A DNA stretch of 64,000 nt from a virus, in the IMG/VR virus record IMGVR_UViG_3300037189_010778, positions 1 to 64,000 of that record. The stretch is one strand, 5' to 3'. Of this stretch, positions 10,149-38,915 are shown piece by piece (positions within the stretch are counted from its first letter, which is position 1; each line of letters begins with the position of its first letter). The position numbers were made by a program, and so were the translations under genes. Below the pieces are notes generated by a model, which saw only the letters and a program-made list of their open reading frames with translations, searched no databases and was not told where the DNA came from.

Positions 10149-11930
10149 TTAAAGGGTAGTTAAACCATTTACATAGATCTTAGCATAGAATTCAGGACGT
10201 AACATCTTCTTAGCGTAACGAGTCATAATACCTTTACGTGGAGTGAAAGTATTAGGATCGTACACCAGAGGAGTCATGATCAACGGAACATAAGGAGCAA
10301 ATACAGCACCTGCTTCCAAGAACTGAGTACCACGGAATCCTAAAAGAATTGTGTTTTCAGTCATGTAAGGGTTTTTGTATACTTTGTAACGACCGTTGAA
10401 AGTACCTGCTTTCTGAACACCAAACGCATATTCCATTTGATCAGCTTCGCCGTTATTGCTAGAAGCAAATCCAGGAATTGATTCAATAACAGTTGCAATT
10501 GTAGGACTAATTACCATAAAATTCGCACCTCCACGAAGAGTTAACTGGTGAATTTTGTTGCTTAATTTTTGGATTTTAGTGCCTAACGTTTGGAACCATT
10601 GGCCTTGAGTGTTATAGAAACCAGCATTAGTATTAGTAGTTGGACCAGCAGTAATAGAAGTAATAGAAGTATTATTAAGTACTGACCAATACTCTGTTCC
10701 AGCAGATGCGTCTTCAATTAACATATCTAAGATTTCCAAATCAATTTCCATTGAAATGTATTCACTCAACATGTTAGTCAATTCAGCTTCAGCATCGATG
10801 TTCTGGTAAGCATTCAAGTCTTGTGCAAATTCAGGTGTCCATACAGCTTTCAACTTTTTAGTTTTAGCAGTGATGGCTTGAGATTGCATTTGAATGTTGA
10901 TCTCAGGAAGAACGATGTTGGCTGGTGATACTGTACTACTTAATGAGTTCGGTACAGCATAAGAAGTATTACCATCTTCAAAATCACCAACATTGTAGTT
11001 ACCAGTACCAGCTGCACTACCACCTAAAGCAGTTGCTTTGTTGTAGTAAATAATCATACTATTAGCACCACCACCAGCAGCAGCAAGAGCAGTAAAGTTA
11101 GCGGATGAAGTAACAAAAAACTGAATTGAACCAGCTCCAGCAGATGTGTAAGTGTAAGTAGTGAACTGAGGTAACACACTAGCATTAGTTAAAGAACCTG
11201 AAAGTGGTATGAATCCACGAACAGCATCAGGATCAAATCCAGATAATTGAGAAGCACTAATTGTTAATTTGTAAATAGTACCAGAAGCTACAGAAGCTGA
11301 GTAAGCACTGTCAAAGTTTAATTCACTCCAAGATGCTGATACAAAACTACCTGTACTTGCGGCCACAGCTGCGGTACCAAAAACTGAACTATTAGTAGCA
11401 GAGGCTGTGTAAGGAATAGAAGCACTAAACTGGTTAGTAGAGTATGTAAATCTACCAGCTCCGTAAAGACCTCCTTCAGCTGCATTTGTTTGAAAAGGAT
11501 ACTGAGAACCAGAATTGTTAGTACCACCATAAAGTGAAGCATTCTGAGTAAATGGATTTTTAGAGTTACCATATTGGAAATCTAAGAAAAACACTAGACC
11601 AGAAGGTAAATTCATAGGCTGTACAGAAACAAATTCTTTAGCAGCGATTTGAGCAAACACCTTACGCACTAATGGTAAAGCAATACCAGCCCATTCAGCA
11701 CCGTTACCAGTACTAAACGCACCAAAACCACTACCACCACCTACGTTGGAAGTTTCAGTTACTAATTGTTTGGCTTGGTTTTCAAGCAACATAGCCATGT
11801 TATTTCTATCTGTATCTCCTAATCCTTCTAGGAGACCAGTTTTTCCCCACTTTTTCGCTAAGCGAGCCGCATCACTTTGAAGTGATCTGTATGGGTTTGC
11901 GGATTCGAGTAATGATTGAATCTGACTCAT
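10149..11930 (-). CDS. gp23: Major capsid protein, gp23-like
   Basis: 593 residues. The N-terminal delta region has KWGKTGLLEGL and NMAMLLENQAKQL, as in T4 gp23. The mature part opens with IALPLVRKVF and VQPMNLPSGLVFFLDF, the gp23 hallmark, and ends with a TPRKGIMTRYAKKMLRPEFY segment. The prohead protease site is probably after E59 (VTE then TSNVGGG), matching T4 processing near residue 65. The new N-arm GGGSGFGAFSTGNG is shared with the 122-residue protein upstream. Residues about 130-330 are S/T/A-rich and probably form an insertion domain. Immediately downstream of scaffold; its own terminator follows. Confidence 0.97.
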   Translation of the reverse strand: MSQIQSLLESANPYRSLQSDAARLAKKWGKTGLLEGLGDTDRNNMAMLLENQAKQLVTETSNVGGGSGFGAFSTGNGAEWAGIALPLVRKVFAQIAAKEFVSVQPMNLPSGLVFFLDFQYGNSKNPFTQNASLYGGTNNSGSQYPFQTNAAEGGLYGAGRFTYSTNQFSASIPYTASATNSSVFGTAAVAASTGSFVSASWSELNFDSAYSASVASGTIYKLTISASQLSGFDPDAVRGFIPLSGSLTNASVLPQFTTYTYTSAGAGSIQFFVTSSANFTALAAAGGGANSMIIYYNKATALGGSAAGTGNYNVGDFEDGNTSYAVPNSLSSTVSPANIVLPEINIQMQSQAITAKTKKLKAVWTPEFAQDLNAYQNIDAEAELTNMLSEYISMEIDLEILDMLIEDASAGTEYWSVLNNTSITSITAGPTTNTNAGFYNTQGQWFQTLGTKIQKLSNKIHQLTLRGGANFMVISPTIATVIESIPGFASSNNGEADQMEYAFGVQKAGTFNGRYKVYKNPYMTENTILLGFRGTQFLEAGAVFAPYVPLIMTPLVYDPNTFTPRKGIMTRYAKKMLRPEFYAKIYVNGLTTL

Positions 11931-11965: not shown

Positions 11966-13057
11966 TTACTTTTTAATACCGGCTAATTTTTGCATTCTTT
12001 CAAACGCGGAATTAACTTCGATAATTGGTTGTTTGGTGTTTTGAGCACCAGCGATAACTTTAGATGCCATACCTCTTACAGACTCAGTCATAGGACGTTT
12101 TGTAGTAGTTTGTGTATTTAAGTTTTCCATCATGGTTTCATACACAAGTCTGGCTTCTTTTTTACTTGTAGCTTTGTCAAAAGCAGTTAAAACTTTAACT
12201 TTTTGTGACTCGCTTAAGTTTTTAGCTTTAAAGACTTTGTTAGCGTAAAGAAGTTTAGAATTTAATAAATTAACTTCACTGAGTTCAGATTTAACTTTGG
12301 CTAAAACTCTGTAAGCTTCATTTAATTCTTCTTTCATCTCATAATAAGCTTCAAAATCAACATCTTGGAATTTAGGTAAGTCTCTCTTATGTTTGCTAGC
12401 CTTACTAGTTCTGTCATGCTTTTCATAATAAGCATCAGGTTTAAGATCTTTAGCTTCATCTAAATCTTCGTCGTCGTACATTTCAGCTAAGAGTTCATCT
12501 AAGTTAATTTCCTCTTCTTCTTCATCTTCAACTTCTATTTCATCTTCAGCACCCATCTCATCTTCCATACCTTCATGTCCAGCTTCTAATTCGCCAGCTT
12601 CGATCATGTCAGAGATAACATCTTCAATGAAATTTTTTAAGTCTTTTTCGGTCATGTCTTCAATATCAAATTCTTCTTCCTCCTCTTCTTCAGCTTCTTC
12701 AGCTTCCATTAAGTCGGTGTCTGATTCTGAGCTTGGGGTAACATTACCGTGGGCTCCTTGCCCTCTAGGGTCATTAATAACTTCTTCCATGTCGTTAAGT
12801 TCTCTTAGAAGTTCATCTAAGTCTAACTCATCCATGGAATCTTCATTTTCGTACATAGATTCTTCATCCATGTCCATCTCTTCTGTTATGTCTTCCTCAT
12901 CCATATTCTCATCTATTTCAGCCAATTTAGCGGCTAATTTTTCTTTAAGATACGGAGTGAAAGTTTCTTCAAGAGCTACTTTTGCATTGGCGATCGCTGT
13001 CTCTTTTATAGCTTTAGCGTCGGCAATGGCTTCTTTCAGAATGTCTCTGTTTGCCAT
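11966..13057 (-). CDS. gp22: Prohead core scaffold, gp22-like
   Basis: 363 residues from MANRDILKEA at 13057, chosen because GAGG lies about 7 bases upstream; an ATG at 13069 would add four residues. Extremely acidic centre (E/D runs, about 60-210). The helical C-terminal part contains NSKLLYANKVFKAKNLSESQK, the conserved gp22 region. Forms the assembly core around which gp23 polymerises and is normally degraded by gp21; several (I/L/V)-x-E sites are visible. The C-terminus reads FERMQKLAGIKK, the same octapeptide (RMQKLAGI) that leads several putative packaged proteins in this window, suggesting it is a core-binding motif. Confidence 0.93.
   Translation of the reverse strand: MANRDILKEAIADAKAIKETAIANAKVALEETFTPYLKEKLAAKLAEIDENMDEEDITEEMDMDEESMYENEDSMDELDLDELLRELNDMEEVINDPRGQGAHGNVTPSSESDTDLMEAEEAEEEEEEEFDIEDMTEKDLKNFIEDVISDMIEAGELEAGHEGMEDEMGAEDEIEVEDEEEEEINLDELLAEMYDDEDLDEAKDLKPDAYYEKHDRTSKASKHKRDLPKFQDVDFEAYYEMKEELNEAYRVLAKVKSELSEVNLLNSKLLYANKVFKAKNLSESQKVKVLTAFDKATSKKEARLVYETMMENLNTQTTTKRPMTESVRGMASKVIAGAQNTKQPIIEVNSAFERMQKLAGIKK
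11975..12004 (-). other. Scaffold C-terminal FERMQKLAGI motif
   Basis: Encodes FERMQKLAGI two codons before the end of the scaffold. Close copies are coded at the N-termini of the genes starting at 22152, 25678 and 45745 and in mid-protein at 37607-37633. Confidence 0.8.
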
Positions 13058-13236: not shown

Positions 13237-13854
13237 TTATATTATAGGACAAGTACCATTAGCGCAAAGTATTTCAGCTAAAAGAGTATTTACTCTAGAG
13301 TATGGATATGTTTTTCTTCTCATTCCTTCATTTAATCCTTCTTTTACTGAGCGCATATATGAACCTGGATTAGATGGTGTGCTTACAAAATCCCAACATA
13401 ATAATTCAAAGTCATCTTGTACTTCCATTGTTCCTTCTCCTAGTGGTTTTAAACTACCCATTCCACGAGATGAAACACCTACTTGTACATTATTGTCAAT
13501 AAGTGCTTTTAATATATTACCAGAAACTGTGGGTAGTATTTCAATTTTACCTATCACTTTATCTCCATCCCACCATATGTTTCTTATAATATGAGATACA
13601 TTTTTTAATGAGATAATAGAGGAATCAGGATGATCTAATTCACCTGTTGCTCTATTTTCTTTAATACAATCCATGTATTTTTCTATCTCACGTTCCCATA
13701 ACTCCTTAGGATAATATCTACCATTGCCGTTTTTAACTTCAGCTGTAGCTAATATGCCCTCAACAAGTGGATTACCAGATGGAGCTTTAGCACCTTCATG
13801 AAGTTGTTCAGGTGATACTGAAAAGGGCATTGTTTCTATTAATACTTGTTTCAT
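13237..13854 (-). CDS. gp21: Prohead core protease, gp21-like
   Basis: 205 residues, similar in size to T4 gp21 (212). Candidate catalytic His75 in GELDHPDSS and catalytic Ser in GVSSRGMGS (residues 126-134), the serine-protease signature of the T4 prohead protease family; a WDFVSTPSNPG segment follows. In T4 this enzyme sits in the core, cleaves head proteins after (L/I)-x-E and then digests itself. It is the presumed enzyme acting at the many (I/L/V)-x-E sites preceding MRVN in the accessory proteins here. Neighbours: upstream unknown core-like gene (2-base gap), downstream terminator then scaffold. Confidence 0.95.
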   Translation of the reverse strand: MKQVLIETMPFSVSPEQLHEGAKAPSGNPLVEGILATAEVKNGNGRYYPKELWEREIEKYMDCIKENRATGELDHPDSSIISLKNVSHIIRNIWWDGDKVIGKIEILPTVSGNILKALIDNNVQVGVSSRGMGSLKPLGEGTMEVQDDFELLCWDFVSTPSNPGSYMRSVKEGLNEGMRRKTYPYSRVNTLLAEILCANGTCPII

Positions 13855-20049: not shown

Positions 20050-20847
20050 TTATTTTAATAAACTTATTAATCTATCTTGTGCTTTTTCTAATTCTTTTTT
20101 AGCTTTAGTTTTTTCTTTAAGTGCGTCTTTTAATTTTTCTTTTTCTTCTCCTTCAGCTTGTTTATATTTTCCTACTATTTCTTTCATTTCTTTTTCTATA
20201 GCAGTTAATTCATCTTCTAACTTTTGAAGTCTAACTGAACTTTTATTTGTTTTTGCTGCTGTTTGAGCTCGTTCATCTTTTTCCTTTTCATTACTTTTTT
20301 CTTTAGATGTTGATGTTTTAGGAGTTGATGCTTTAGGTTCTTTAGGTTCTTTAGGTGTTGATGTTTTAGGTTCTTTAGGTAATTTTTCTCTACCAGCTTC
20401 AAGATATGCTGCAAAATCTCCATCTTCTTTTTCAAGAGCAGCTCGAGTAGCTGGGTTATTCCATGTAGCTGTATCTTTATTTGTTTGTTTAGCTAATACT
20501 TTAATATCTACTTCATTTTCTTTTTCTAAAGCGGATAATAATTGATCTAAGGCATTTTTACCATATTTTTCACCTCTATTTTCTTTATACTTATCTAATG
20601 CTTTTTTAAAGCCTTCTTTATCTTTTACTTTATAAAAAGATGCCATTTCATTAAGTGAAATTTCAGCTACACCAATTGATGTTTGTGTTTTTCTAGCTTG
20701 AGATATAGCGTCTTTAACGGTGTCTAAACCAGTTCGTTCAGTTCTAGCTATACTTGGTGCTTCTGATGGGTCTGTTTTAGAGCCAACCATAGTTAATTCT
20801 GAAATTATCATTTCTTTGATAAGTTGTTTAAGTTGAGATTTTTTCAT
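20050..20847 (-). CDS. Tagged accessory protein with KEP/STPK repeats
   Basis: 265 residues beginning MKKSQLKQLIKEMIISELTM, one of the LxxLIxEEI-type N-terminal leaders seen on several genes here. A helical segment (about 50-150) is followed by a low-complexity stretch of KEP/TPK units (about 155-190) and a charged C-terminal coiled coil (about 200-265). No enzyme motif. ISLNE at about 62-66 offers a further L-x-E site. It lies just upstream of terminase, after the tagged multi-module gene. I infer a packaged or core-associated protein; function unknown. Confidence 0.6.
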   Translation of the reverse strand: MKKSQLKQLIKEMIISELTMVGSKTDPSEAPSIARTERTGLDTVKDAISQARKTQTSIGVAEISLNEMASFYKVKDKEGFKKALDKYKENRGEKYGKNALDQLLSALEKENEVDIKVLAKQTNKDTATWNNPATRAALEKEDGDFAAYLEAGREKLPKEPKTSTPKEPKEPKASTPKTSTSKEKSNEKEKDERAQTAAKTNKSSVRLQKLEDELTAIEKEMKEIVGKYKQAEGEEKEKLKDALKEKTKAKKELEKAQDRLISLLK

Positions 20848-20877: not shown

Positions 20878-22152
20878 TTAATCTAAATAATCATCTACTA
20901 ATTTTTTCATAACTCTTGCTACATTTGAATTAACATCATATCTATCTCGAAAATAAGATACGTCTTGATCTATATCATTGTTGTGGCTATATTGTTCCCC
21001 ATCTTCAATTGTAAAATTTCTTACAAAATAATTAAATCCCCAATTGTTTTCCAAATCATCATGGATTTTATTCCACTCTTCTTTAGAATATTTTTTAAAA
21101 TCATCATAATATATGTCATTAGGATCTATTTCATCATAAGAATGAAATAAAGCCCATTCCCATATTTCATAATCCGAATTATATAAATCTGGGTAGTCTA
21201 TGAATTTGGCTAGATAGTTTATTAATTTACCTTCATTTTCATAACTTACATCTAATTTTAATAAAGAAGCAATACCAGGATCATTAACTCGCATTTCATT
21301 TACAGATCGATTAGAATAATTAATTATATATTTTTTAATATCATTTAAATTTAATATAATCATAACCCAAACAAATGTTCCTCCACCTTCACTGTCTGTA
21401 TAAAACTCTAATATTGGAATTTCATATTGTTTAAGTTTAGATATAAAAGATCTTAATCCATTTATGTTAAAATCAGGATTCTCAGATTCAATAGCATCCA
21501 TAATATTTTCATCACTATATCCAGCCATTATTTCAGGTTCATTATATATAGGAATAGTGAACATTAATTCTTTATCTTCATCCAATATATTACCATAATA
21601 TTCAACGTTATTTTTCTTATCAATGTATATTATTTCATCTTCATTTTCTTTTTTAAAAATAAGAGAAGAAGGTTCATTAACTCGCATTTCATTAATATCA
21701 GATTTTTGATCTTTGATCTTTTTTAAAAAATCTTCAACAGCATACTGATAAAGTTTTTGATCGTCCTTTACTTCTTTAAGTGCTTTTATATACTTGGGAT
21801 CATTTATATTTATAATATTTTTATTATTAACTGCGTGCTTTAACATGAGTTCATGACCTAAACGATTAGCATACCAGTTAAAATCTCTTTCATCATCAAT
21901 AAGATCACCTAATGTACCTTTATAACCAATTTGTTTAGCGATATCAAATGCTAAAACATTTGCCATTTCACCATCATAAAATTCACTCCAAAAATCCTCA
22001 GGATCGTCGGGTATTATATAATCATCCCAATATTCATCTAAGATATCTTTATAAAGATTATAATTAGTCCAACGATATTTATTTGGTTCATTAACTCGCA
22101 TTTCTGTTATAGGGATACCAGCCAATTTTTGCATGCGATAAAATTCACTCAT
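20878..22152 (-). CDS. Three-module protein with EMRVNEP cleavage-like junctions
   Basis: 424 residues. The leader MSEFYRMQKLAGIPITE precedes MRVNEP at residue 18. Two further junctions, INE-MRVNEP (M156) and VNE-MRVNDP (M287), divide it into modules of 138, 131 and 138 residues. All three junctions fit the gp21-type (I/L/V)-x-E rule. Module 1 contains LAFDIAKQIGYKGTLGDL and matches the body of the 147-residue protein at 24493, which carries a different leader. Modules 2 and 3 are acidic and aromatic-rich without a recognised fold. I infer a polyprotein packaged in the head and cut into three. AATATTTATA precedes the gene. Confidence 0.75.
   Translation of the reverse strand: MSEFYRMQKLAGIPITEMRVNEPNKYRWTNYNLYKDILDEYWDDYIIPDDPEDFWSEFYDGEMANVLAFDIAKQIGYKGTLGDLIDDERDFNWYANRLGHELMLKHAVNNKNIININDPKYIKALKEVKDDQKLYQYAVEDFLKKIKDQKSDINEMRVNEPSSLIFKKENEDEIIYIDKKNNVEYYGNILDEDKELMFTIPIYNEPEIMAGYSDENIMDAIESENPDFNINGLRSFISKLKQYEIPILEFYTDSEGGGTFVWVMIILNLNDIKKYIINYSNRSVNEMRVNDPGIASLLKLDVSYENEGKLINYLAKFIDYPDLYNSDYEIWEWALFHSYDEIDPNDIYYDDFKKYSKEEWNKIHDDLENNWGFNYFVRNFTIEDGEQYSHNNDIDQDVSYFRDRYDVNSNVARVMKKLVDDYLD
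21277..21303 (-). repeat. Junction repeat VNE-MRVNDP
   Basis: Codes for the third junction of the 424-residue protein; one mismatch from the 20-base consensus GGTTCATTAACTCGCATTTC (plus strand). Confidence 0.8.
21670..21696 (-). repeat. Junction repeat INE-MRVNEP
   Basis: Second junction of the 424-residue protein; carries an exact copy of GGTTCATTAACTCGCATTTC at 21671-21690. Confidence 0.85.
22084..22110 (-). repeat. Junction repeat ITE-MRVNEP
   Basis: First junction of the 424-residue protein, just after RMQKLAGIP; exact 20-base copy at 22085-22104. Confidence 0.85.
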
Positions 22153-22166
22153 GAATGTTAATTTAA

Positions 22167-22176
22167 TATAAATATT
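22167..22176 (-). promoter_or_regulatory. AATATTTATA element (three-module gene)
   Basis: Coding strand AATATTTATATTAAATTAAC, 14 bases before the start at 22152, overlapping the end of the kinase gene. Confidence 0.5.
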
Positions 22177-22699
22177 ATGAAAATAATACTTCTTTAATTG
22201 TTTGAATACGTTCTTTAGTAGTACCTTTAATTTCTACTAAACGTTTAGGTGGATATTCTTTCAACATTTCTTTAATAGTAAAATCAATTTTATCACGATA
22301 ATTACTGTCTATAGTACGTATACCATTATCTTCAATATTTACACCTTCAGGTGAAACATAAAATATAACATCATAATCATTACGTAGATGCATCATCAAA
22401 TTAACAAATTTCTCTTTAACATTCCATTCAATTGAATTAGCACTTAACGTAAATGCGCATACATCATATATAGTTCTATCTGTAATAATATTTTCTTTCA
22501 TTAATTCAACAGAACGTTCAGCAGCAAATACTATTTGTCCTTTTAATGTTGAATCTGTATTTAATGTTATGCCTTGATCTCGTAAATATTTACTACGTTC
22601 AGTAGCAAATTCATAATCTTCAAATTCAGGTAATTCCATTAATGCTTTAACTAAAGTAGTTTTACCACACGATACTGTTCCACAAAAACCTATTTTCAT
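22175..22699 (-). CDS. P-loop kinase / NadR-like ATPase
   Basis: 174 residues. P-loop GTVSCGKTT at 7-15. Conserved elements typical of the AAA_28/NadR-kinase-like group follow: ATERSKYLRDQ and ITDRTIYDVCAF, then DVIFYVSPEG and a GIR-TIDSNYRD lid-like segment. The family phosphorylates nucleosides, nucleotides or nicotinamide riboside; substrate here cannot be told. Forms a two-gene unit with the 81-residue protein upstream under a host-type promoter, consistent with early or middle nucleotide metabolism. Confidence 0.75.
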   Translation of the reverse strand: MKIGFCGTVSCGKTTLVKALMELPEFEDYEFATERSKYLRDQGITLNTDSTLKGQIVFAAERSVELMKENIITDRTIYDVCAFTLSANSIEWNVKEKFVNLMMHLRNDYDVIFYVSPEGVNIEDNGIRTIDSNYRDKIDFTIKEMLKEYPPKRLVEIKGTTKERIQTIKEVLFS

Positions 22700-22710
22700 A
22701 TTATTTTATT

Positions 22711-22956
22711 TTATGCTCTTGTTCCTGATTGTTTACCTGCTGCTGTTTTATGAAATGGTACTCCTTCACCATCTTTTTTAATATTTTCCCACTGTTCTTT
22801 AGTTTTTTTAATACCCCAAACATAATACTCTGCTTTACGTTTATCACCTTGTGGTATTAAGGCAGGACCATCATAGTTATGAGTTACAGCCTTACCTTCA
22901 ATGATAGTGTAATATACAATAGTACCGTCTGCTTGTTTTAAATGTTTTGTCTGCAT
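22711..22956 (-). CDS. Small conserved phage protein, unassigned
   Basis: 81 residues. Contains NYDGPALIPQGDKRKAEYYVWGIKKTKEQW, a WGxxxxxEQW-type motif seen in small phage proteins of unknown role. First gene after a well-formed host-type promoter; kinase gene 12 bases downstream. Confidence 0.65.
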   Translation of the reverse strand: MQTKHLKQADGTIVYYTIIEGKAVTHNYDGPALIPQGDKRKAEYYVWGIKKTKEQWENIKKDGEGVPFHKTAAGKQSGTRA

Positions 22957-22974
22957 ATTCTTTTTATTTTTTAT

Positions 22975-23006
22975 TAAATATACTAAAGAATTTTTAAAAA
23001 ACCAAA
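22975..23006 (-). promoter_or_regulatory. Host-type (Bacteroidetes) promoter for 81-residue gene
   Basis: TTTG at 23003-23006 and TATATTTA at 22975-22982, separated by exactly 20 bases; the ATG at 22956 lies 18 bases further. Fits the Bacteroidetes -33 TTTG / -7 TAnnTTTG pattern with a final A. Confidence 0.7.
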
Positions 23007-23015
23007 TTTTTTAAT

Positions 23016-23066
23016 TTAAAAATTTTCTATAAAATCTGGGTATTCTTCGTTAGGATCTTGATACAT
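23016..23066 (-). CDS. Possible 16-residue peptide MYQDPNEEYPDFIENF
   Basis: An ATG two bases beyond the flavoprotein stop opens a 16-codon frame that ends before the next promoter's -33 region. Acidic, with aromatic residues. Could be a translationally coupled micropeptide or chance; no independent support. Confidence 0.2.
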   Translation of the reverse strand: MYQDPNEEYPDFIENF

Positions 23067-23068
23067 AA

Positions 23069-24352
23069 TTAGTTTTGTAATAAATATTCAGCAACATATA
23101 TTCCGTGTGCTCCTGATACAGTAATTCCACGAGCGCTTAATGCGTCTCCAACAAAATGTACATTTTGATATTTAGTAAGACTTAAATCCTCATAATTTAC
23201 AAGAGGTTCGGGACTTAAATATTTGCACTCGGGTATATATACGCCCCAATCATCACCAAATTCGAATACTTTATTCATATCATTGATGAAATTTTCAATA
23301 TAAGTAAAATATTTACCCATTACTTCTCTTACCGATGTTAAATCATATATTTTTGTTGTGTTGATTAATTCATGTTCTGACGTTTTAGATGGATTTCTTT
23401 TTGGACTGTAATATAAACCAGTACCACTAATTTGTAATTTACTTACTACATCTCTACTCCATTTAAACGGATCTTCAATACCTTTAATTTCCATCAATAT
23501 GCCAAAATTAGTCATATCATTTCTAAATTCCTCACCTTTCTTAGCATGACCATTGTATGTAATATCACCATATGTTTCTTCTACAGCAACATAAGCGGCA
23601 TTATTGTTAGTACAGAATGAACGTAAAGACACGTTATCAAATTTCTGATATAATTTGAAATCATATGATACATCAATTAGTTTCTGAAAATATTTTTGTG
23701 GTGCCTCGTAACGTACTCCAATTTGTACTGATTTTGGTTCAGTTGGTAATTTATATCTGTCTGATAATGATTGGGCAAAATCAATACCTGATTTGCCTAC
23801 TGCAAAAATAAGTTTATCATACGTAAAATTTTTATTATCAGTATGAATTGTATTTTGATAAAATAAAATATTTTTAACTTCTGTATTCCATTCAAATTGT
23901 ACACCTTTATCAACTAAATACTGATACCAATTTTTAGCGATCTCGTGCAAGAAATTGGATCCAATGTGCCATACAGGAAATAAACGTAATCCAAAGTATG
24001 GTTTAATAAAGTCTGGTTCAGTTACAGGATCAGAACAAAATATTTCTTCTGGTTTAGGATGGAAGCGTCTAAAGTTATTAATAACTTGATCCATTAATTC
24101 CATTGCTTTATCCTCACCACAATATTTAGATAACTGACCTCCTATTGCTGTATGGTATGTGAGTTTACCATCACTCCATGCGCCCGCACCGGCAAAACCA
24201 CACATTACTTCTTCAGGTTGTCTTTCATATGGGTCCCTTCCCTTATCAATAATAGTAATCAACTCACCTGGGTAGCCGTTATCTACTAATTTAGTCGCCG
24301 CGTTTATACCGGCCACTCCGCTTCCTACAATTACAATTTTTTTCTTTTTCAT
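23069..24352 (-). CDS. FAD-dependent oxidoreductase, COG2509-like
   Basis: 427 residues. N-terminal dinucleotide-binding GSGVAGINAA (GxGxxG at 10-15) with an acidic residue after strand 2 (IIDKG). Then MCGFAGAGAWSDGKLT, the conserved glycine-rich segment of COG2509 flavoproteins. C-terminal NVHFVGDALSARGITVSGAHGIYVAEYL closes the FAD fold. Length fits the family. Substrate is unknown; family members are cellular FAD-dependent dehydrogenases. Rare in phages. It has its own host-type promoter between a terminator and the start, so it is expressed as a separate unit. Codon and base use are not visibly different from neighbours. Confidence 0.85.
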   Translation of the reverse strand: MKKKKIVIVGSGVAGINAATKLVDNGYPGELITIIDKGRDPYERQPEEVMCGFAGAGAWSDGKLTYHTAIGGQLSKYCGEDKAMELMDQVINNFRRFHPKPEEIFCSDPVTEPDFIKPYFGLRLFPVWHIGSNFLHEIAKNWYQYLVDKGVQFEWNTEVKNILFYQNTIHTDNKNFTYDKLIFAVGKSGIDFAQSLSDRYKLPTEPKSVQIGVRYEAPQKYFQKLIDVSYDFKLYQKFDNVSLRSFCTNNNAAYVAVEETYGDITYNGHAKKGEEFRNDMTNFGILMEIKGIEDPFKWSRDVVSKLQISGTGLYYSPKRNPSKTSEHELINTTKIYDLTSVREVMGKYFTYIENFINDMNKVFEFGDDWGVYIPECKYLSPEPLVNYEDLSLTKYQNVHFVGDALSARGITVSGAHGIYVAEYLLQN

Positions 24353-24357
24353 ATTAT

Positions 24358-24389
24358 TAAATATACTAAATTTTATTTAAAAAGCCAAA
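24358..24389 (-). promoter_or_regulatory. Host-type promoter for flavoprotein gene
   Basis: TTTG at 24386-24389, 20-base spacer, TATATTTA at 24358-24365, ATG 5 bases further. It starts right after the terminator at 24396-24425. Confidence 0.7.
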
Positions 24390-24395
24390 TAAAAA

Positions 24396-24425
24396 GTGGC
24401 GTCTCCTTTTTTTAGGTGACGCCAC
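24396..24425 (-). terminator. Rho-independent terminator after 147-residue gene
   Basis: 8-bp stem GTGGCGTC / GACGCCAC with a 14-base A-rich loop, followed on the minus strand by TTTTTATTT. Insulates the flavoprotein promoter from upstream transcription. The remaining 24426-24492 shows no supportable gene. Confidence 0.85.
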
Positions 24426-24492
24426 AACTGTCATATTTTATTTATTAAAGCAACCGGCTATGAATCGGTCTGTATGTTGTATTATTTTTATT

Positions 24493-24936
24493 TTAAAAAC
24501 CTAATTGCTTACCATATTTTTTTAACATGCTATCATAGTATCTAATTTTTTTATTATAAAAATTCGCATCATCTAAAAGACCCATATCTTGACCATACTG
24601 GAGGTAAAATTGAGCTGCTAAAGCATTGCAATACAAATTAAAAGTTTCATTACTCATTACAAGATTATCAAAATTACCTTTAAAACCAGCTCGTTTAGCA
24701 ATATCAAATGCTAGATCATTTACTAAACTAAAATCATCAAGTTCTAACATAAATTCTTCAGGAGAATTAATCCCATATGCTTCAAATAAATCTTCTAACA
24801 CAGATTCATATCCTTCATAATCTTGCCAATCTGGGGAAAGTGAGTCTATAGCGTTGAATTTTTGATTGTTTTTAGACGCGCTGATAGCTTTATTAATCTC
24901 TTCGCGAATTAATTTTCTAAGTTCAAATTTTTTCAT
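24493..24936 (-). CDS. Tagged accessory protein, LRKLIREEI leader
   Basis: 147 residues. Leader MKKFELRKLIREEINKAI, then a body with DLAFDIAKRAGFKGNFDNL, NLYCNALAAQFYLQYG and a C-terminal MLKKYGKQLGF. The body matches module 1 of the 424-residue protein (LAFDIAKQIGYKGTLGDL), which has the RMQKLAGI/MRVNEP leader instead. Its leader and last residues also match the 91-residue neighbour, and the two share 61 identical bases upstream. Likely packaged protein of unknown function. Confidence 0.65.
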   Translation of the reverse strand: MKKFELRKLIREEINKAISASKNNQKFNAIDSLSPDWQDYEGYESVLEDLFEAYGINSPEEFMLELDDFSLVNDLAFDIAKRAGFKGNFDNLVMSNETFNLYCNALAAQFYLQYGQDMGLLDDANFYNKKIRYYDSMLKKYGKQLGF

Positions 24937-24994
24937 TGTTTAATTTTTGATTGTTTAATATAAATATGTAAAAGAAGAGAAAAATACAATTAAT
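24934..24994 (-). repeat. 61-bp duplicated start region, copy 1
   Basis: Identical over 61 bases to 25274-25334, covering the start codon and upstream region including CATATTTATA. Confidence 0.9.
24959..24968 (-). promoter_or_regulatory. TATTTATA element (147-residue gene)
   Basis: Coding strand CATATTTATATTAAACAATC, 22 bases before the start; within the duplicated leader. Confidence 0.45.
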
Positions 24995-25000
24995 TTTTCA

Positions 25001-25276
25001 TTACTTACCAAACTTTTTTTTACCATACTGTAGTAACATTCGGTGAGCTTTTGAGTAACTATCTTTTGAAGCTTTTCCCATAGCACTACCTTCTATTTTT
25101 TCAGCCACAGTATCAACTAAATCTGAGTATGTTATTTCATCTTTAAGTGATTCCATGTCTGTGACTCCATGGGTCTTTAATATTTTTTCAAGGTCTGAAG
25201 ACGATAATTCTTGATTTTCATTAATTACTTTACGAATTTCTTCTTTAATGAGTTGTCTTAATTCAAATCTTTTCAT
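25001..25276 (-). CDS. Tagged accessory protein, LRQLIKEEI leader
   Basis: 91 residues: leader MKRFELRQLIKEEIRKVINE (ends I-N-E, a possible prohead protease site), then a short helical body ending LLQYGKKKFGK. Paralogue of the 147-residue downstream protein by leader, C-terminus and 61 bp of upstream identity; its middle is shorter. Function unknown. Confidence 0.65.
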   Translation of the reverse strand: MKRFELRQLIKEEIRKVINENQELSSSDLEKILKTHGVTDMESLKDEITYSDLVDTVAEKIEGSAMGKASKDSYSKAHRMLLQYGKKKFGK

Positions 25277-25334
25277 TGTTTAATTTTTGATTGTTTAATA
25301 TAAATATGTAAAAGAAGAGAAAAATACAATTAAT
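25274..25334 (-). repeat. 61-bp duplicated start region, copy 2
   Basis: Identical to 24934-24994; shows that leader and upstream element were duplicated together. Confidence 0.9.
25299..25308 (-). promoter_or_regulatory. TATTTATA element (91-residue gene)
   Basis: Same context as 24959-24968, in the second copy of the duplicated leader. Confidence 0.45.
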
Positions 25335-25336
25335 CT

Positions 25337-25678
25337 TTATATTATCTCTACTCCTAAGTTTTCAAGAGCTGTTTCTAAATCACGAACATAAGAATAATTT
25401 AAACGATCAATTTGTTTAGCATATGGTCCTTTTTCATAAAAAAGAAAATCATATGAATTTTCAAGATTTATACCATACGCTTTAAGGGCAAGTTGTAGCA
25501 AAGATAACCATTCATCTGTTCCTGTTTCTACCGTACCATCATCTATTACTTCTGGGTATTCTTTTTGAATTAGTGCTTTTATTTGTGTAGCTTTATCAGG
25601 TGACTTAACTTGCATTTCATTAATGCCAGCTAATTTTTGCATGCGTTTAAATTCCTCGCTTAATATTTGTTTTTTCAT
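25337..25678 (-). CDS. Tagged protein, RMQKLAGI leader with EMQVKSP
   Basis: 113 residues. Leader MKKQILSEEFKRMQKLAGINE then MQVKSPDK, a diverged form of the MRVNEP junction with I-N-E before M22. The body has WLSLLQLALKAYGI and FYEKGPYAKQIDRL, mostly helical. No known family. AATATTTATA-type element upstream. Confidence 0.65.
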   Translation of the reverse strand: MKKQILSEEFKRMQKLAGINEMQVKSPDKATQIKALIQKEYPEVIDDGTVETGTDEWLSLLQLALKAYGINLENSYDFLFYEKGPYAKQIDRLNYSYVRDLETALENLGVEII

Positions 25679-25691
25679 GCTTGTTTTTTGG

Positions 25692-26410: not shown

Positions 26411-26417
26411 ATTTTAT

Positions 26418-28290: not shown

Positions 28291-28300
28291 TTTTTTTGTT

Positions 28301-30914: not shown

Positions 30915-30915
30915 G

Positions 30916-31572
30916 TTAGTAGTATTGCCAGTAAATATCGTTAGGACCTAATTTTATTTTATATAAGCGTGGGTTTGTAGGATCACCGTAAAGCAATTCG
31001 GGATCTAATGATATGTATGCTCTATTATCATCACCATCATCTAGCATTATATCATCACCACTGTTCCAAAAACCATATTGTTCTATATCAGCTCTATACC
31101 ATCCGTTTAATACATTACTCCAAGATGGTTCATCATCTCTTTTCCATTCAGGTGTATTCCAAAGTGCGTCTACTAAGATTTTTTTAAATGATGGATTTAA
31201 CACCATATAATTAGCTAGTTGATCATTATTTTTGAATTTAGGTATAGGTTTATTAACCCGCATTTCATTTACAGGTTGTTTATCTAGTATTACTCCATAA
31301 TTCAATAGAAATTCTATAAATGAATCAACATTTCCTTCCCAATAATCTTTTTCTTTGATAAATTTATATGCTTCACGTTTTCTTAATGTTTTATTATCAC
31401 GTGACGCCACTTTAAACAGATAGATAGCATCAGATGTATCTTCATCAAAATCATACCTAATATCATCCCAGTCTTGATCTAACCATTTTTCAAATTCAGG
31501 ATTAAGATAATATATTTTATCATCAGGAAAATTAATCCGCATCTCATTTAATACATTTATTAATTTTATCAT
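30916..31572 (-). CDS. Two-module tagged protein
   Basis: 218 residues. Leader MIKLINVLNE then MRINFPDD; a second junction VNE-MRVNKP near residue 104 starts module 2. Module 1 is acidic and helical (YEF-like: KWLDQDWDDIRYDFDED). Module 2 is W/Y/D-rich (PEWKRDDEPSWSNVLNGWY, ending DIYWQYY). Both junctions fit (I/L/V)-x-E. No known domain; presumed packaged and cut in two. Confidence 0.7.
   Translation of the reverse strand: MIKLINVLNEMRINFPDDKIYYLNPEFEKWLDQDWDDIRYDFDEDTSDAIYLFKVASRDNKTLRKREAYKFIKEKDYWEGNVDSFIEFLLNYGVILDKQPVNEMRVNKPIPKFKNNDQLANYMVLNPSFKKILVDALWNTPEWKRDDEPSWSNVLNGWYRADIEQYGFWNSGDDIMLDDGDDNRAYISLDPELLYGDPTNPRLYKIKLGPNDIYWQYY
31246..31272 (-). repeat. Junction repeat VNE-MRVNKP
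   Basis: Internal junction of the 218-residue protein; two mismatches from the 20-base consensus, coding the same hexapeptide pattern. Confidence 0.8.
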
Positions 31573-31584: not shown

Positions 31585-32238
31585 TTAATAGTTATGACAG
31601 TATAAAGTGTAATCGCCTTCTCCTATGTAAGATATTTCAATTTTTTTATAGCAAACGTTAGTAGTTATAGTAGTACCGCTTTTATCTCCAAAAATTTCAA
31701 AAAGTATTTCATTTGGTTTAAAACGAGTATAATATGATAATATATATTTTTTAGCTTCTTTTCCGTCTTCACTTAATTGATCTTCATCATTGTAAAAACT
31801 CCATTCATTTATTAAAAAATCATCTAATGAATCATAACCAAAACTTTTATAAAGTTCTTGTAGTGATGAATTACTTGTTATATAAGCTAACAAATATGGT
31901 TTTTTATCTATAAAATAATCCAAAATCTGTTCTTTAGAAAGAGATATAGGTTTATTAACTCGCATTTCACTTAAAGCTTCAACAGGTTCATACCAGTTTG
32001 TACAGTATTCATCAGCGGCATATGGTATCTTGTTAGTGCCAGCCCATTCAGCATAATATGTGTTATTACATACTTGATCTTCTTTATTCCACCATTTACA
32101 ATTAGCACAGCATGAACCTCCTTTAGGTACTTTCATTCCAGCTTTATGACTATCTGGTAGTTCCATAGGGCCAGGACCACCATATTCTTCTTTTAATTGT
32201 TGTTGTATTAGGTAATTAGTTATGTTGAATTGTTTCAT
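31585..32238 (-). CDS. Two-module protein: cysteine-rich (HiPIP-like) module plus tagged module
   Basis: 217 residues. N-terminal helix MKQFNITNYLIQQQLKE ends L-K-E. Then comes a cysteine-rich segment, KGGSCCANCKWW...VCNN...YCTNW (about 40-82). Its Cys spacing and aromatic surroundings resemble small high-potential iron-sulfur proteins. The junction LSE-MRVNKP (near residue 92) begins a helical second module (LSKEQILDYFIDKKPYLLAYI). The cluster assignment is uncertain; a zinc site is equally possible. Confidence 0.65.
   Translation of the reverse strand: MKQFNITNYLIQQQLKEEYGGPGPMELPDSHKAGMKVPKGGSCCANCKWWNKEDQVCNNTYYAEWAGTNKIPYAADEYCTNWYEPVEALSEMRVNKPISLSKEQILDYFIDKKPYLLAYITSNSSLQELYKSFGYDSLDDFLINEWSFYNDEDQLSEDGKEAKKYILSYYTRFKPNEILFEIFGDKSGTTITTNVCYKKIEISYIGEGDYTLYCHNY
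31948..31974 (-). repeat. Junction repeat LSE-MRVNKP
   Basis: Internal junction of the 217-residue protein; one mismatch from the 20-base consensus. Confidence 0.8.
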
Positions 32239-32242: not shown

Positions 32243-35200
32243 TTATGATTCTGTTAAATCGTTCATGTTATATATTCTGTTATAATCTTCTTGTTTTTCA
32301 GGCATACCTGATGAAAGATATACATTGTTTCCTAACATAGAATCACCAGATATGTTATCTTTTATGACGTTACCTTCTGCATCCATTATAACCCAAGATT
32401 CATAGTACATATTATCCTTATTAGATTTAGGAAGTAAAACATACTTTTTACCTTTATCATTAATAATAAACGGTACAGCGAATAATAAAGTACTATATTT
32501 TGTATTTTGATTGAATTTTTCAACTAAATTAATTATTGTTTTTCGTTCAGAAGTTGATAATTTACGCCATTGTTCTTCATCTATAGGGACTGGGTTTACT
32601 TCTTGTGTAGGCATTGCGTTTCTATTTTCTAAATCTTCACTACTTATATTAGTTCCTTCTTCATAAATCCATGGTTCAAATAATTTAATATATAATTCAT
32701 ATAATTGTTTAAGTTTTGGGTCACTAATATAATCAATAGCTTCTGGTGGGAGGAAATCAAGTTCTTTAGCCATTTTATTAACGTATGTTTTAGCAGCGTC
32801 TTCACCAAAATATTTTTTAATATATTCAAAAGATAAACTATCTTTTTCAAAAATATCTAAATATTGTTGTTTTTCTTCATCACTTAAATATTCAATAAAA
32901 GGTAAAGGTACAATGGTAGTTGATGTTTTACCTTGTTTATAGTCATCTAAAGCTCTAGTAAATCTAAATTTAGCATAACTTCGTGATAAAGCTTTACTAT
33001 CTTTCAAATCGTTATATGTAGGTTTATATCCAGTACCAGTTCGTAAAGCTAAATTTTTTAATTCTGGATCTAGGATTTTAAACATAGCACTATTAAATGC
33101 ATTTGGTTGATCTGCTCTATTAGCGATATATATTCTTTTTTGATTTCTGTTTAAATCTTTAAACATATTGAAATCTAAAATTTTATCTCTTACTAAAGCT
33201 TGATCAGTTTCTTCTTCAGATGGAGGGACATATTTAAATACATCTTTAAGATTTTTTATTTTTTCCCAAGCTTGTTTTCCACTTTCACCTCCATTTTTTA
33301 TCATAAATTGTCCCACTTCATCCCAAGACATTCCTTTATCATTTCCAGTAGCTTCATGATTTGAACCCCATTGATTTACAGTATCTGTCACTCCAAATTT
33401 ACCATTTTGGAAAGCATGTATTACAAAAAAGTGATACCAATTTATAAAATTTTCTCTATTTGATGGATTACCTTTTATATCCGCATTTTGAGTAGAATCT
33501 GCTACAAAATAAAAACTTCTAAATGCTCCACCTCGACCAAAACGATATGTGTAATATTGATTTGATGCTTCTTCTTTTCTACCTATACAAAATCCGTAAG
33601 AATAAATTTTATTATCTTCTCCTTTATATTTAAAAGCATAATTTAATTTAATACAACCACCGTAATCACTTCCTTCATAAATTTTAAGCCCATTATTGTT
33701 ATATACTACTGGTACTCCTTTTATATCAATAAGTTCAGCATCTTGAATTGTACTAAAATCTTTTGATGATTTTTCAGCTTTTCCACCATAAGCGTCTAAA
33801 ACAGTTTCTAAATCTTTCCAAGTATAATTTAAAATATCTTGTGGGTTTAAAATTTTATTAGTTTTAGGATCAGGTTCAGTAAATTTCTTAGGTACTATTA
33901 TTCCTCCAGCTTCTCCTTTAAGTCCTGCTTGTATTTTTTTAGGGAGATTTTGTTTAATTTGATCAAATCTATTTAACTTTTCTTTAATATCATCTTTTGA
34001 CAGAGTATTTTTCATTTCTTTTTGAAATTTTTCTGTCATTTGATTAATAATCTTTTCAGAGTACTCATTTAATTGAGTTCTTTTTGATTCTCTTAAATCT
34101 TTAAATTCTTTTGTTTTATATACTTTATCTATTTGTATTTCTCTATCATCAAATACTATTCTAACATTACCACCATAATGTGTATTTCCATCTATTCCAG
34201 CTCTTAATAAGAATAAAGAGGTATCTTTAGGAGGATTTTTAGATTTTTTTCCATAAAAATTTTCTATAGTATGATAAACTTTACTACCTATCATAGATGT
34301 ATTTATATTAACATCCACATTATCTTTTTGGGCTTGTTTATTAATTTTATCAACTTGATATTGAGGAATAGGACCATCCCAATTTAAATAATCAGGAGTT
34401 TTATTAGGAAATAATGTAACTTTATATATATAATGCATTGATTCCTGTTCTACTTCTAGATCTTTAATAATTTCTATAAATTTACGGTAGTTATCTAATA
34501 CTTCTTCTTTACTTTCAAAATCAGGTTCTTCTTCAAGAATAGAAATCATGTCTTCTGCATATTCTATATATTCTTTAGCTGTTTTTAGTCCTTGCGGTAA
34601 TCCAAAAAATACTTCATTTTCATATTCTAAACCTAATTCTTCAGCAGTTTTACCTTGAAATAATGTTTTAAACCTATGGGGTGTATTTATAGATAAAGCA
34701 TATCCTTTAACCATTTCTGGATTTTTTCCGAAATATAAACCCCATCCAATTACTTGTATTCCTGTTCCCCCACCCATTCCTTCACTGTGAAATTGTCTAA
34801 AATAATTTGGTGAACCATGCCATGCCTCTTCATTTTCATTTAATGGTTTAGTTTTATCTATTTTAGAAAATGTTTTTTTAATTTCTTTATTAAATGATTC
34901 AAGAAATATTTCAGCAAAAGTTTGTTTATGCATATTTTCTTTTTTTATCGGTTTTAGTTTTTTTATTAAATTTTCTCGTGCCCAAAATCTTTGACCAGTT
35001 TTATCATCATCTATTAAATACCAAGGAATACCATCTTTTTCAGTGTAATATCTGTTATAATCTTTAGATAAGGTTAATGTTTCATTACCTAATGATACTT
35101 TTTCTCCTGGGTAGAATTTTTTAGGCTCATTAACTCGCATTTCAACTAATGGAGCGTATTTTCTAATTAATGACATAGCTACCGACCTAGGTTCCCAAGA

Positions 35201-36079
35201 ATCAGGATTGTTTCTATCTATATGAGGAGTATCCATATATGGGGGAGGGTTAGTTATAGCACTTGTCGATACTACTTTTAAGTTATTATCTTCTTGCTCT
35301 GCTTTTTTAGACCAACGTGCTACATTCCATCCAGTAAATGCAGCTATTATTTTTTCTTTAGATAAATCTATTAAATAATTTTCTGGTTCACGATATGTTA
35401 ATTTTGGGATTTGTTTATAGTCATCATATGAGTGAATTTCTCCGTATGCCTTTTCATATTTGAACGGTTCATTAACTCGCATTTCCTTAATAACATCTGT
35501 TTTTTTAAATTCTCCTATCAAATATGATTCAAAATCATTATCATCAATAACATCAGCAAGATAAAATGAGTAGCAATCATTATTATTTATAACTTCATCT
35601 ACAGAATATTTTACACTTTTTGTTGTATATATTTCATCATCATAATCTATAATATCTTTTTTAACTTGGGCAAGAGCACTTCTAAATAAACAATCTATAT
35701 CTACATTTTCTTCATAGAATTTAGTTATTAATTTGTATAGATAGTTTTTTAAGTTAGGATTAATTTCAAGATATTCTTTAATATTTTCTTCATCTATCAG
35801 ATCTTCATTATTATATGATAAAAGTATTTCTTCACCATCTTTAAATATCTCATGATTATTAAAGATCATTTGATCTATTATAAAAGATTTGAGTACATCA
35901 TATTGTTCAATTAAATAATCTAAATCAATACCATCAGATTCAAATGTATCTATTACGCGTAAAACTACATAATCTTTAATTTTAGATATTATTTCAGGAG
36001 AAATACCATAAGTAAGAGATTTGGGTTTATTAACCCTCATCTCATTTAAAAATTTATCAGTCAGTTTAAATTCTATCAT
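32243..36079 (-). CDS. Giant modular tagged protein with ADP-ribosyltransferase-like domain
   Basis: 1278 residues, start overlapping the nucleotidyltransferase gene by 14 bases. Junctions LNE-MRVNKP (M14), IKE-MRVNEP (M200) and LVE-MRVNEP (M314) mark early modules. A fourth leader-like helix (MHKQTFAEIFLESFNKE) ends at PLNE (about 412-415). Next comes AWHGSPNYFRQFHSEGMG...GWGLYFGKN (about 419-453), an ART-type motif as in polyvalent ADP-ribosyltransferase-like phage domains, to about 655. After QLNE at 669-672 the 600-residue C-terminal module has KIYEGSDYGGCIKLNYAF and YYTYRFGRGGAFRSFYFV, a block recurrent in environmental phages. T4 packages Alt, an ADP-ribosyltransferase, in its head; this may be the modular counterpart. 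Confidence 0.8.
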   Translation of the reverse strand: MIEFKLTDKFLNEMRVNKPKSLTYGISPEIISKIKDYVVLRVIDTFESDGIDLDYLIEQYDVLKSFIIDQMIFNNHEIFKDGEEILLSYNNEDLIDEENIKEYLEINPNLKNYLYKLITKFYEENVDIDCLFRSALAQVKKDIIDYDDEIYTTKSVKYSVDEVINNNDCYSFYLADVIDDNDFESYLIGEFKKTDVIKEMRVNEPFKYEKAYGEIHSYDDYKQIPKLTYREPENYLIDLSKEKIIAAFTGWNVARWSKKAEQEDNNLKVVSTSAITNPPPYMDTPHIDRNNPDSWEPRSVAMSLIRKYAPLVEMRVNEPKKFYPGEKVSLGNETLTLSKDYNRYYTEKDGIPWYLIDDDKTGQRFWARENLIKKLKPIKKENMHKQTFAEIFLESFNKEIKKTFSKIDKTKPLNENEEAWHGSPNYFRQFHSEGMGGGTGIQVIGWGLYFGKNPEMVKGYALSINTPHRFKTLFQGKTAEELGLEYENEVFFGLPQGLKTAKEYIEYAEDMISILEEEPDFESKEEVLDNYRKFIEIIKDLEVEQESMHYIYKVTLFPNKTPDYLNWDGPIPQYQVDKINKQAQKDNVDVNINTSMIGSKVYHTIENFYGKKSKNPPKDTSLFLLRAGIDGNTHYGGNVRIVFDDREIQIDKVYKTKEFKDLRESKRTQLNEYSEKIINQMTEKFQKEMKNTLSKDDIKEKLNRFDQIKQNLPKKIQAGLKGEAGGIIVPKKFTEPDPKTNKILNPQDILNYTWKDLETVLDAYGGKAEKSSKDFSTIQDAELIDIKGVPVVYNNNGLKIYEGSDYGGCIKLNYAFKYKGEDNKIYSYGFCIGRKEEASNQYYTYRFGRGGAFRSFYFVADSTQNADIKGNPSNRENFINWYHFFVIHAFQNGKFGVTDTVNQWGSNHEATGNDKGMSWDEVGQFMIKNGGESGKQAWEKIKNLKDVFKYVPPSEEETDQALVRDKILDFNMFKDLNRNQKRIYIANRADQPNAFNSAMFKILDPELKNLALRTGTGYKPTYNDLKDSKALSRSYAKFRFTRALDDYKQGKTSTTIVPLPFIEYLSDEEKQQYLDIFEKDSLSFEYIKKYFGEDAAKTYVNKMAKELDFLPPEAIDYISDPKLKQLYELYIKLFEPWIYEEGTNISSEDLENRNAMPTQEVNPVPIDEEQWRKLSTSERKTIINLVEKFNQNTKYSTLLFAVPFIINDKGKKYVLLPKSNKDNMYYESWVIMDAEGNVIKDNISGDSMLGNNVYLSSGMPEKQEDYNRIYNMNDLTES
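35123..35149 (-). repeat. Junction repeat LVE-MRVNEP
   Basis: Third junction (M314) of the 1278-residue protein; one mismatch from the 20-base consensus. Confidence 0.8.
35465..35491 (-). repeat. Junction repeat IKE-MRVNEP
   Basis: Second junction (M200) of the 1278-residue protein; exact copy of the 20-base consensus at 35466-35485. Confidence 0.85.
36023..36049 (-). repeat. Junction repeat LNE-MRVNKP
   Basis: N-terminal junction (M14) of the 1278-residue protein. Confidence 0.75.
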
Positions 36080-36443: not shown

Positions 36444-37172
36444 TTAAAATACTTCCGGATTTTCTTTATAGTCTTTATAGCTTACAGTTAAGAACCCTTT
36501 ATTATTAAACTCACTAAGAGTTCTTGAATAATCTTCATCCCATAGTGGTTCCTTATAACTTATACCATCATTGTGTCTTTCTACTAAATATTCTTCTCCA
36601 ACATAATATCCATAAGCTATAGTAAATTTATTTGTACCTAATTGATTATATAAAGTCACAAATGGGAGTAATACATCTTCTATATCATCTTTTATTTCTT
36701 TTAAAGACATCAATTCTTCTTTATCTGGTTCTACTATTATATGATCACCTTCTATGTATGGTAATTCTTCTTGTGATTGCCAATAATCAGTACTATTATT
36801 AGCGTCTAAAATATATTTTAATATGCCTTGATTATCATTGTTATTATAATAGTCAACTAATGTTAATGCATCATTTTTAGTTAAAGTATCTTCAAATATG
36901 TCACTTATTGGTCCTTTCATAAATCTATATAGATCTTTAAAACCATAATACCCACCAGCTAAATAATTAATATCTTTTTTTAATTCATTAACTACATTTT
37001 GTAATGTGTCATTATATTCACTAAATCTTCCACCCATTTCAGAATCAGAATATATAAATTCTACTATTATATCTGCGTCAACATCTGTATAAGATTCACT
37101 AGTAGCTTTTATATACAATACGCCAGGTTCATTAACCCGCATTTCATTTAATATATCTATTAATTTAATCAT
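36444..37172 (-). CDS. Tagged protein, MIKLIDILNE-MRVNEP
   Basis: 242 residues. The archetypal leader MIKLIDILNE precedes MRVNEPG; a single acidic module follows (VDADIIVEFIYSDSEMGG, LTLVDYYNNNDNQG). No known family. The leader resembles, as I recall it, the T4 Alt N-terminus MELITELFDE in length, hydrophobic spacing and terminal acidic residue. Presumed packaged in the head and trimmed after E10. Confidence 0.7.
   Translation of the reverse strand: MIKLIDILNEMRVNEPGVLYIKATSESYTDVDADIIVEFIYSDSEMGGRFSEYNDTLQNVVNELKKDINYLAGGYYGFKDLYRFMKGPISDIFEDTLTKNDALTLVDYYNNNDNQGILKYILDANNSTDYWQSQEELPYIEGDHIIVEPDKEELMSLKEIKDDIEDVLLPFVTLYNQLGTNKFTIAYGYYVGEEYLVERHNDGISYKEPLWDEDYSRTLSEFNNKGFLTVSYKDYKENPEVF
37125..37151 (-). 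repeat. Junction repeat LNE-MRVNEP
   Basis: N-terminal junction of the 242-residue protein; one mismatch from the 20-base consensus. Confidence 0.8.
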
Positions 37173-38645: not shown

Positions 38646-38915
38646 TTATTTTTTAGATCTGTATCTTTTTATTATTTTTCTTAAAATAGCATCCTTTTCA
38701 TCTTCATTCACAGCTTTATCTGGTGTTTCATCTGGTGTTTCCTTTGGTGGAGTTAGAGGTCGGCGTGGACCTGGTTTTTCTATTGGGAGGCCAGGATGAA
38801 CTTCTGGTTCCGTACCAGGTTGTGTAGATGGTGAAGGTTTAGGAGCTGGTTGATTTTCTCTTAAAGCTGTTTTTATTTCTTCTCTGATAATTTTTTTTAA
38901 GTCTGATTTTTTCAT
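38646..38915 (-). CDS. Small tagged proline-rich protein
   Basis: 89 residues. Leader MKKSDLKKIIREEIKTALRE followed by a P/T/E-rich middle (APKPSPSTQPG..., repeated PDETPDK) and a basic helix at the end (DAILRKIIKRYRSKK). No globular domain is evident. Likely a disordered packaged or core-binding protein. Confidence 0.55.
   Translation of the reverse strand: MKKSDLKKIIREEIKTALRENQPAPKPSPSTQPGTEPEVHPGLPIEKPGPRRPLTPPKETPDETPDKAVNEDEKDAILRKIIKRYRSKK

Follow-up and report, generated by a model that had tools for sequence, protein, structure and literature searches.

We analyzed a 64,000-nucleotide stretch of viral DNA (the window; positions 1 to 64,000 of IMG/VR record IMGVR_UViG_3300037189_010778) and found that two of its proteins share a homologous body but begin with different short leader peptides, one of which recurs at the C-terminus of the scaffold protein that the phage itself encodes. 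The first protein has 424 residues (MSEFYRMQKLAGIPITEMRVNEP...; open reading frame [ORF] at 20878-22152, minus strand) and opens with a leader of what we call class A (MSEFYRMQKLAGIPITE, 22102..22152), which has an I-x-E site at its end. Three modules follow: module 1 (residues 18-155, 21688..22101), module 2 (21295..21687), which lies between an INE/MRVNEP and a VNE/MRVNDP joint, and module 3 (20878..21294). The second protein has 147 residues (ORF at 24493-24936, minus strand) and consists of a class B leader (MKKFELRKLIREEI, 24895..24936) and a single body (24493..24894).

An earlier note on this DNA had proposed that module 1 and the 147-residue body are related and bear different leaders, and both parts of the proposal are borne out. 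With the leaders removed, the two bodies aligned with a Smith–Waterman score of 146; shuffled sequences averaged 32.8 (standard deviation 6.0), none of 2,000 shuffles scored as high (Gumbel p ~2e-11), and BLASTP of the leader-stripped proteins returned E 8e-12 over 80 residues. In a MAFFT alignment, the bodies are 34% identical with an invariant LAFDIAK stretch. The note had named a body alignment as the check; the bodies proved homologous, and the unrelated domains that it had allowed for did not appear. Modules 2 and 3 had no detectable relation to module 1 or to the 147-residue body in the shuffle test. One could still attribute the likeness of the two bodies to chance or low complexity, as just two members of the body family were found, and these only in this virus and in a longer record that is its twin: a scan of IMG/VR for the family found only L091, 100% identical, in G036, a 160.9-kb record that evidently derives from the virus of the 75.8-kb record holding the window, and the family was absent from the 35 related records searched. 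However, the shuffles and the independent leader swaps on other bodies described below leave this explanation with next to no credence, and we regard it as already refuted. Neither Pfam nor PHROGs gave a match for the 424- and 147-residue proteins or for a 166-residue leader protein of the window. A structure model of the 147-residue body was all-helical and of low confidence (predicted local distance difference test score, 65.5), and the best match of this low-confidence model in the PDB had E 0.73, short of the 0.001 threshold.

Read from the sequences, the window pair is one case of a general exchange of leaders among bodies. From 6,017 genes called by a greedy longest-ORF script, not a gene finder, we collected 432 unique leader-bearing proteins and labeled them by regular expressions as class A (97), B (114), C (167), or D (54). 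The pool omitted L001, L010, L152, L132-L139, L091, and L475 (duplicates from the window's own phage, and T4), while near-copies with different letters remain. Mixed leader classes were found in 14 of the 42 body families having at least two leader-bearing members. All pairings (A-B, A-D, A-C, B-C, B-D, and C-D) were present on homologous bodies; classes A, B, and D are distinct, and border cases between B and C account for some of the six B-C families. The clearest A/B pair, L462:5801-6421 (A) and L373:2222-2827 (B), is 49% identical over 172 residues (E 3e-47), and further such pairs are L097:10187-10792 (A) with L462:4341-5414 (B) and L494 (A) with L541 (B). For a family of ~190 residues with A, B, or D leaders, the tree requires at least five changes, with two origins of B, one next to A members and the other next to D members; four leader labels in this tree (one B and three A) were set by hand, and one truncated row was dropped. 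The L023 member of the family directly precedes the scaffold gene. A second family, with B or C leaders, shows four changes, at least two of them forced by supported branches. The interchangeability of leaders on one body thus extends well beyond the single pair on which it was first proposed, to six class pairings and two trees with several changes, and the note's wording of a "second class" of tag understated a set of at least four.

The peptide of class A can be placed in its genomic setting. The window is part of a T4-type head gene cluster on the minus strand, with PHROGs matches to a capsid protein, prohead protease, portal, and large terminase. The major capsid protein is encoded at 10149..11930 (PHROG 138, E 3.9e-69) and the prohead (head maturation) protease at 13237..13854 (PHROG 207, E 1.6e-58), both on the minus strand. 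Between them, immediately upstream of the capsid gene, lies a gp22-like scaffold (11966..13057, minus strand), a name given from position, acidic composition, and C-terminus and not from a database match. This putative scaffold ends in the tag AFERMQKLAGIKK (11969..12007), a peptide that is also the class A leader (RMQKLAGI). By the capsid protein, the nearest named phages are Flavobacterium phage immuto (53%) and Microcystis phage Mel-JY01 (46%), followed by LR756508, a 484-kb uncultured phage (45%), and Rhodothermus phage RM378 (34%). The scaffolds of immuto and Mel-JY01 end in SRWQKLAGIIK and ERMKKLAGIVK, respectively, and the protein upstream of the RM378 capsid gene ends in RIKRLAGL; in LR756508, the end is MKSRMQKLADIS, with the motif altered to RMQKLADIS. 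A scaffold ORF adjoined the capsid gene in 77 of 80 related loci, the other three having no scaffold candidate. All 77 scaffolds carried the motif within their last 22 residues, so that the cargo peptide equals the scaffold C-terminus in every scaffold ORF found.

The strict A motif was restricted in position as well. Among 1,865 genes of 21 genomes, it occurred 14 times N-terminally, once internally, and 20 times C-terminally, and never in shuffled sequences. Over the proteins of 21 genomes, a few chance-looking matches aside, the motif in general stood at scaffold C-termini, at the N-termini of other proteins, at an internal site in a 487-residue protein, and at the C-termini of two nonscaffold proteins. 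Among leaders not chosen for the site, 33 of 34 had [LIV]-x-E within nine residues after the A motif, compared with 9% of control windows, the sole exception being the window's 166-residue protein. (A figure of 93 of 97 includes loci fetched with an ITE-containing pattern, and we use 33 of 34 instead.) In contrast, 76 of 77 scaffold ends had no E after the motif. The boundary of the capsid propeptide has a site of this kind, QAKQL(V/L)xE, in all 74 capsid ORFs read. The class A leader thus reads as the scaffold tail plus a putative cut site, and its identity to the scaffold C-terminus, together with its protease-type end, strongly implies that class A addresses the prohead. The earlier note had counted MRVNEP as part of this leader; the hexapeptide lies outside the targeting motif and belongs to a separate 20-bp repeat.

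Class A leaders in the window are also found on a 113-residue protein (MKKQILSEEFKRMQKLAGINE/MQV; 25337..25678, minus strand) and on the 166-residue protein (45245..45745, minus strand), which contains an internal B-like helix and has homologs with A or D leaders. The 487-residue protein (37175..38638, minus strand) combines its internal A motif with a protease-type site and an MRIN joint (RMQKLAGIPVKE/MRINIP).

Class B has the consensus MKKxELKxLIREEI. In the same 21 genomes, the B-type motif occurred 29 times N-terminally and 12 times internally, against 0.3 and 1.8 after shuffling, and it lay at residue 6 in 68 of the 114 unique leaders, a fixed distance from the start; class B is a real, position-fixed leader. 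A second [LIVM]-x-E followed the B motif in 63 of 114 leaders, 49 of them at one offset, compared with 18% of control windows. Genes with B leaders cluster with the other classes: 15 of 23 lay within three genes of a gene with an A, C, or D leader, where 3.6 were expected, and none of 2,000 permutations reached this number. In LR756508, 11 of 20 B-leader genes were no more than 30 kb from the capsid gene, in a region holding 74 of 709 genes (Fisher 6e-7), the regular expression for this count having been widened after the cluster of B genes had been seen. In that phage (L154:12404-22783 and L158), B-leader genes follow one another a short way upstream of the capsid gene, and two more lie ~22 kb downstream.

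The window itself has three further genes with B leaders, all on the minus strand: a 91-residue protein (25001..25276), whose body has a borderline relation to the 147-residue body (10 of 2,000 shuffles scored as high); a 265-residue protein (20050..20847) directly upstream of the large terminase gene, whose orthologs in relatives also have a B leader; and an 89-residue protein (38646..38915). One 370-residue protein, L097:11059-12171, carries both a B leader at its N-terminus and an A tag at its C-terminus. It has weak tape-measure-like PHROG matches and is possibly an ejected pore or pilot protein. A scaffold origin of class B was considered and dropped. In a profile of 24 B leaders, scaffolds as a group scored above other long proteins, but with a p-value inflated by the scaffolds being one family; matches to true scaffolds singly had E >1, lay mostly at the scaffold N-terminus, and did not fall on one helix, and one better match labeled as scaffold was the double-tagged 370-residue protein.

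We consider it likely that A and B are alternatives to each other, both being cleavable propeptides that target head-packaged cargo of a T4-like phage to the prohead. Short N-terminal peptides of both classes are common to unrelated bodies, both end in a predicted L/I-x-E site, and the genome of the window has both a gp21-type prohead protease and a scaffold. Class A proteins would most likely enter the assembling prohead through the docking site of the scaffold, which we place either inside the scaffold core or on the inward-facing side of the capsid shell. For class B, an amphipathic helix of ~14-20 residues, the most likely docking place would be a different site of this core or shell. After closure of the prohead, the prohead protease would cut after [LIV]-x-E at the leader end, and the cut bodies, once released, would be ejected along with the DNA.

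Several observations weigh against this reading. We found no proteome or experiment that places any leader protein in the head. A leaders keep M where their own scaffold has M or W, giving no signal of coevolution. Class B has no clear match to a scaffold segment, the best scaffold match having an E above 1. The I-[RK]-E that B leaders hold at a fixed place is partly set by the regular expression, which itself contains the E, though with the E not required it was still there in 109 of 143 cases. Finally, a conserved family next to baseplate genes starts with a B-like helix in six of six genomes. The immuto member (KNV73_gp114 in immuto_2-6A) adjoins a gene annotated as baseplate assembly, and the main counterexample to B as a head signal, likewise a conserved baseplate neighbor with a B-like helix at its start, lies just past the window (L010:4555-4902; G000 64555-64902). 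Because of this family, B alone is no proof of head targeting. It would also fit a different account, in which only class A is a head address and B is a general docking or assembly helix of late virion proteins, tail parts included, with the A/B exchange being ordinary domain shuffling among virion genes; the lack of a clear scaffold origin for B agrees with such a role. We nevertheless find this account unlikely: none of the six baseplate-adjacent genes is near other leader genes, in contrast to 15 of 23 other B genes, B replaces A and D in the family whose L023 member directly precedes the scaffold, and B bears protease-type sites. The claim that B is a second capsid tag accordingly stands in part. 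Its indirect support comes from a head-cluster gene on which B exchanges with A and D, from the gene neighborhood, and from the built-in I-[RK]-E, against which the B-like N-terminus beside baseplate genes has to be set; class B is likely but unproven as a capsid tag. The exchange with A shows shared use and not destination.

The leaders could also be N-terminal caps, serving as protease decoys, chaperone-binding segments, or masks of toxicity, that hold the body inactive until cleavage. In favor of this, both A and B carry an [LIV]-x-E site, and some bodies resemble enzymes, such as a C-leader family with a zeta-toxin-type kinase domain. Caps would, however, leave unexplained why class A equals the scaffold C-terminus and why an A tag stands at the C-terminus of two nonscaffold proteins, and the leaders swap freely among unrelated bodies; we judge this explanation very improbable compared with prohead targeting by A and B.

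Some of the cargo genes are strings of modules joined by a repeat. The 20-bp sequence GAAATGCGAGTTAATGAACC occurs eight times in the window (21278-37145) at three or fewer mismatches, where 0.01 copies are expected, and encodes EMRVNEP. In G036, we found 16 EMRVNEP-type joints in 11 genes. MRVN joints follow A leaders, follow C leaders, and separate the modules of the 424-, 218-, 217-, and 1,278-residue proteins, and multi-module proteins would additionally be cut at the MRVNEP joints. As the joint between leader and body is short and shared, leaders may move between bodies by recombination, with GAAATGCGAGTTAATGAACC as a candidate recombination joint bearing the cut site. More tentatively, and with rather less confidence than for the role of A and B, we propose a phage lineage having at least four interchangeable, protease-removed head-cargo tags, one of them a scaffold copy, with different docking places, multi-module chains cut in the head, and, in this virus, a near-identical 20-bp joint coding for the residues at the cut site by which tags and modules recombine.

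Four genes on the minus strand illustrate these arrangements. A 242-residue protein (36444..37172) has the class C leader MIKLIDILNE followed by MRVNEP; a 218-residue protein (30916..31572) has a class C leader and one internal MRVNKP joint; a 217-residue protein (31585..32238) has a D-like leader, MKQFNITNYL, and one internal MRVNKP joint; and the multi-module protein of 1,278 residues (32243..36079) has three MRVN(K/E)P joints. An ADP-ribosyltransferase was suspected in the last of these, and Pfam and PHROGs gave no support for it.

We compared the leaders with known systems, drawing on parts of open-access papers, with all features on the side of our phages read from sequence alone. In T4, the capsid targeting sequence (CTS) is a 10-residue propeptide and the gp21 prohead protease cuts after L/I-X-E (PMC9026906). 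The leaders resemble the CTS of IPI, IPII, IPIII, and Alt in combining a short N-terminal peptide, L/I-x-E cleavage, and diverse bodies (PMC9026906, PMC9958956, PMC3012670). Of all classes, C (for example, MIKLIDILNE) is most like the T4 CTS, a likeness of layout only, and by eye A and B have nothing in common with the CTS beyond the x-E end. Unlike in T4, several leader classes coexist and replace each other on one body, one class equals the scaffold C-terminus, whereas the C-terminus of T4 gp22 has no resemblance to the CTS, and some cargo genes consist of serial modules separated by recurring cut-type joints. T4 gp22 (L152:39118-39927) begins MLKEQLIAEA and has IAEA in common with the CTS of IPII and IPIII. 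The T4 CTS may likewise echo the scaffold, there at its N-terminus, which we offer as a lead and not as a test.

An analogy for class A comes from P22, in which the scaffold's C-terminal helix-turn-helix is the coat-binding part and the C-terminal region is essential for assembly with the coat (PMC9962691). As class A copies the scaffold end and the P22 helix-turn-helix binds coat, a mechanism for class A is nearly written in the sequence: by this analogy, the A peptide, like the scaffold tail, would bind the capsid protein. Cargo enters the shell through a scaffold part in P22 fusion encapsulation as well, but the P22 fusions are laboratory-made and use a folded helix-turn-helix (PMC9962691), whereas here the proposed address is a natural N-terminal cargo peptide of ~13 residues, followed by a protease-type site. 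The N-terminal signal of phage P1 DarB, which can bring a reporter as well as an internal protein inside a myovirus head, is similar in effect; it may need a larger folded N-terminus, P1 seemingly has no separate scaffold, and a swap of leader classes is not described for P1 in the text consulted (PMC9024508). In phages of the SPN3US/phiKZ type, the prohead protease removes N-terminal propeptides from several head proteins, much as predicted here, but most such propeptides have lengths of 111-254 residues, and the parts consulted describe no short classes that are shared and exchangeable (PMC10052503, PMC7411985). The open-access literature, in the parts covered, describes neither a scaffold C-terminus reused as a cargo leader nor swapped leader classes; subscription papers were outside this scope. 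Nor did these sources, including PMC7077304, yield a virion proteome of immuto or Mel-JY01. Among annotated phages, the A consensus matched only immuto phages and the B consensus only LR756508, although we count KNV73_gp230 and gp083 of immuto_2-6A as A-leader proteins and KNV73_gp095 and gp080 as B-leader proteins; of four other cargo searches, three returned nothing or only immuto and Mel-JY01, and virion evidence came from none.

If the proposed targeting holds, the leaders would provide a sequence rule for listing which proteins are packaged in the head, and probably ejected, in a large set of uncultured phages with mostly unannotated genes. It would name scaffold mimicry as a likely docking mechanism and make head cargo re-addressable by exchanging one short peptide (10-20 residues). 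How the prohead recognizes capsid targeting sequences, an old question, would become testable in an isolate, Flavobacterium phage immuto_2-6A.

Two near-neighbor genes at window positions 27097-28290 and 29415-30644 encode what we take, by eye, to be a VWA-type protein and a MoxR-type AAA ATPase. Elsewhere in the window, three adjacent and overlapping class C genes (50852-52317) have leucine-rich-repeat-like bodies of 148-176 residues and are likely the product of recent tandem expansion. A Cys-rich family with C or D leaders (L189, L207, and L222) is found in many phages, and seven matching records are labeled high potential iron-sulfur protein. It also occurs inside long ORFs behind other sequence, two of which open like nucleotidyltransferases by eye. 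The zeta-toxin-type kinase domain mentioned above (L107:8594-9385; Pfam E 2.7e-16) stands behind a C-type leader that our regular expression missed, although it caught the orthologs in other genomes, and this protein is likely an enzymatic head cargo.

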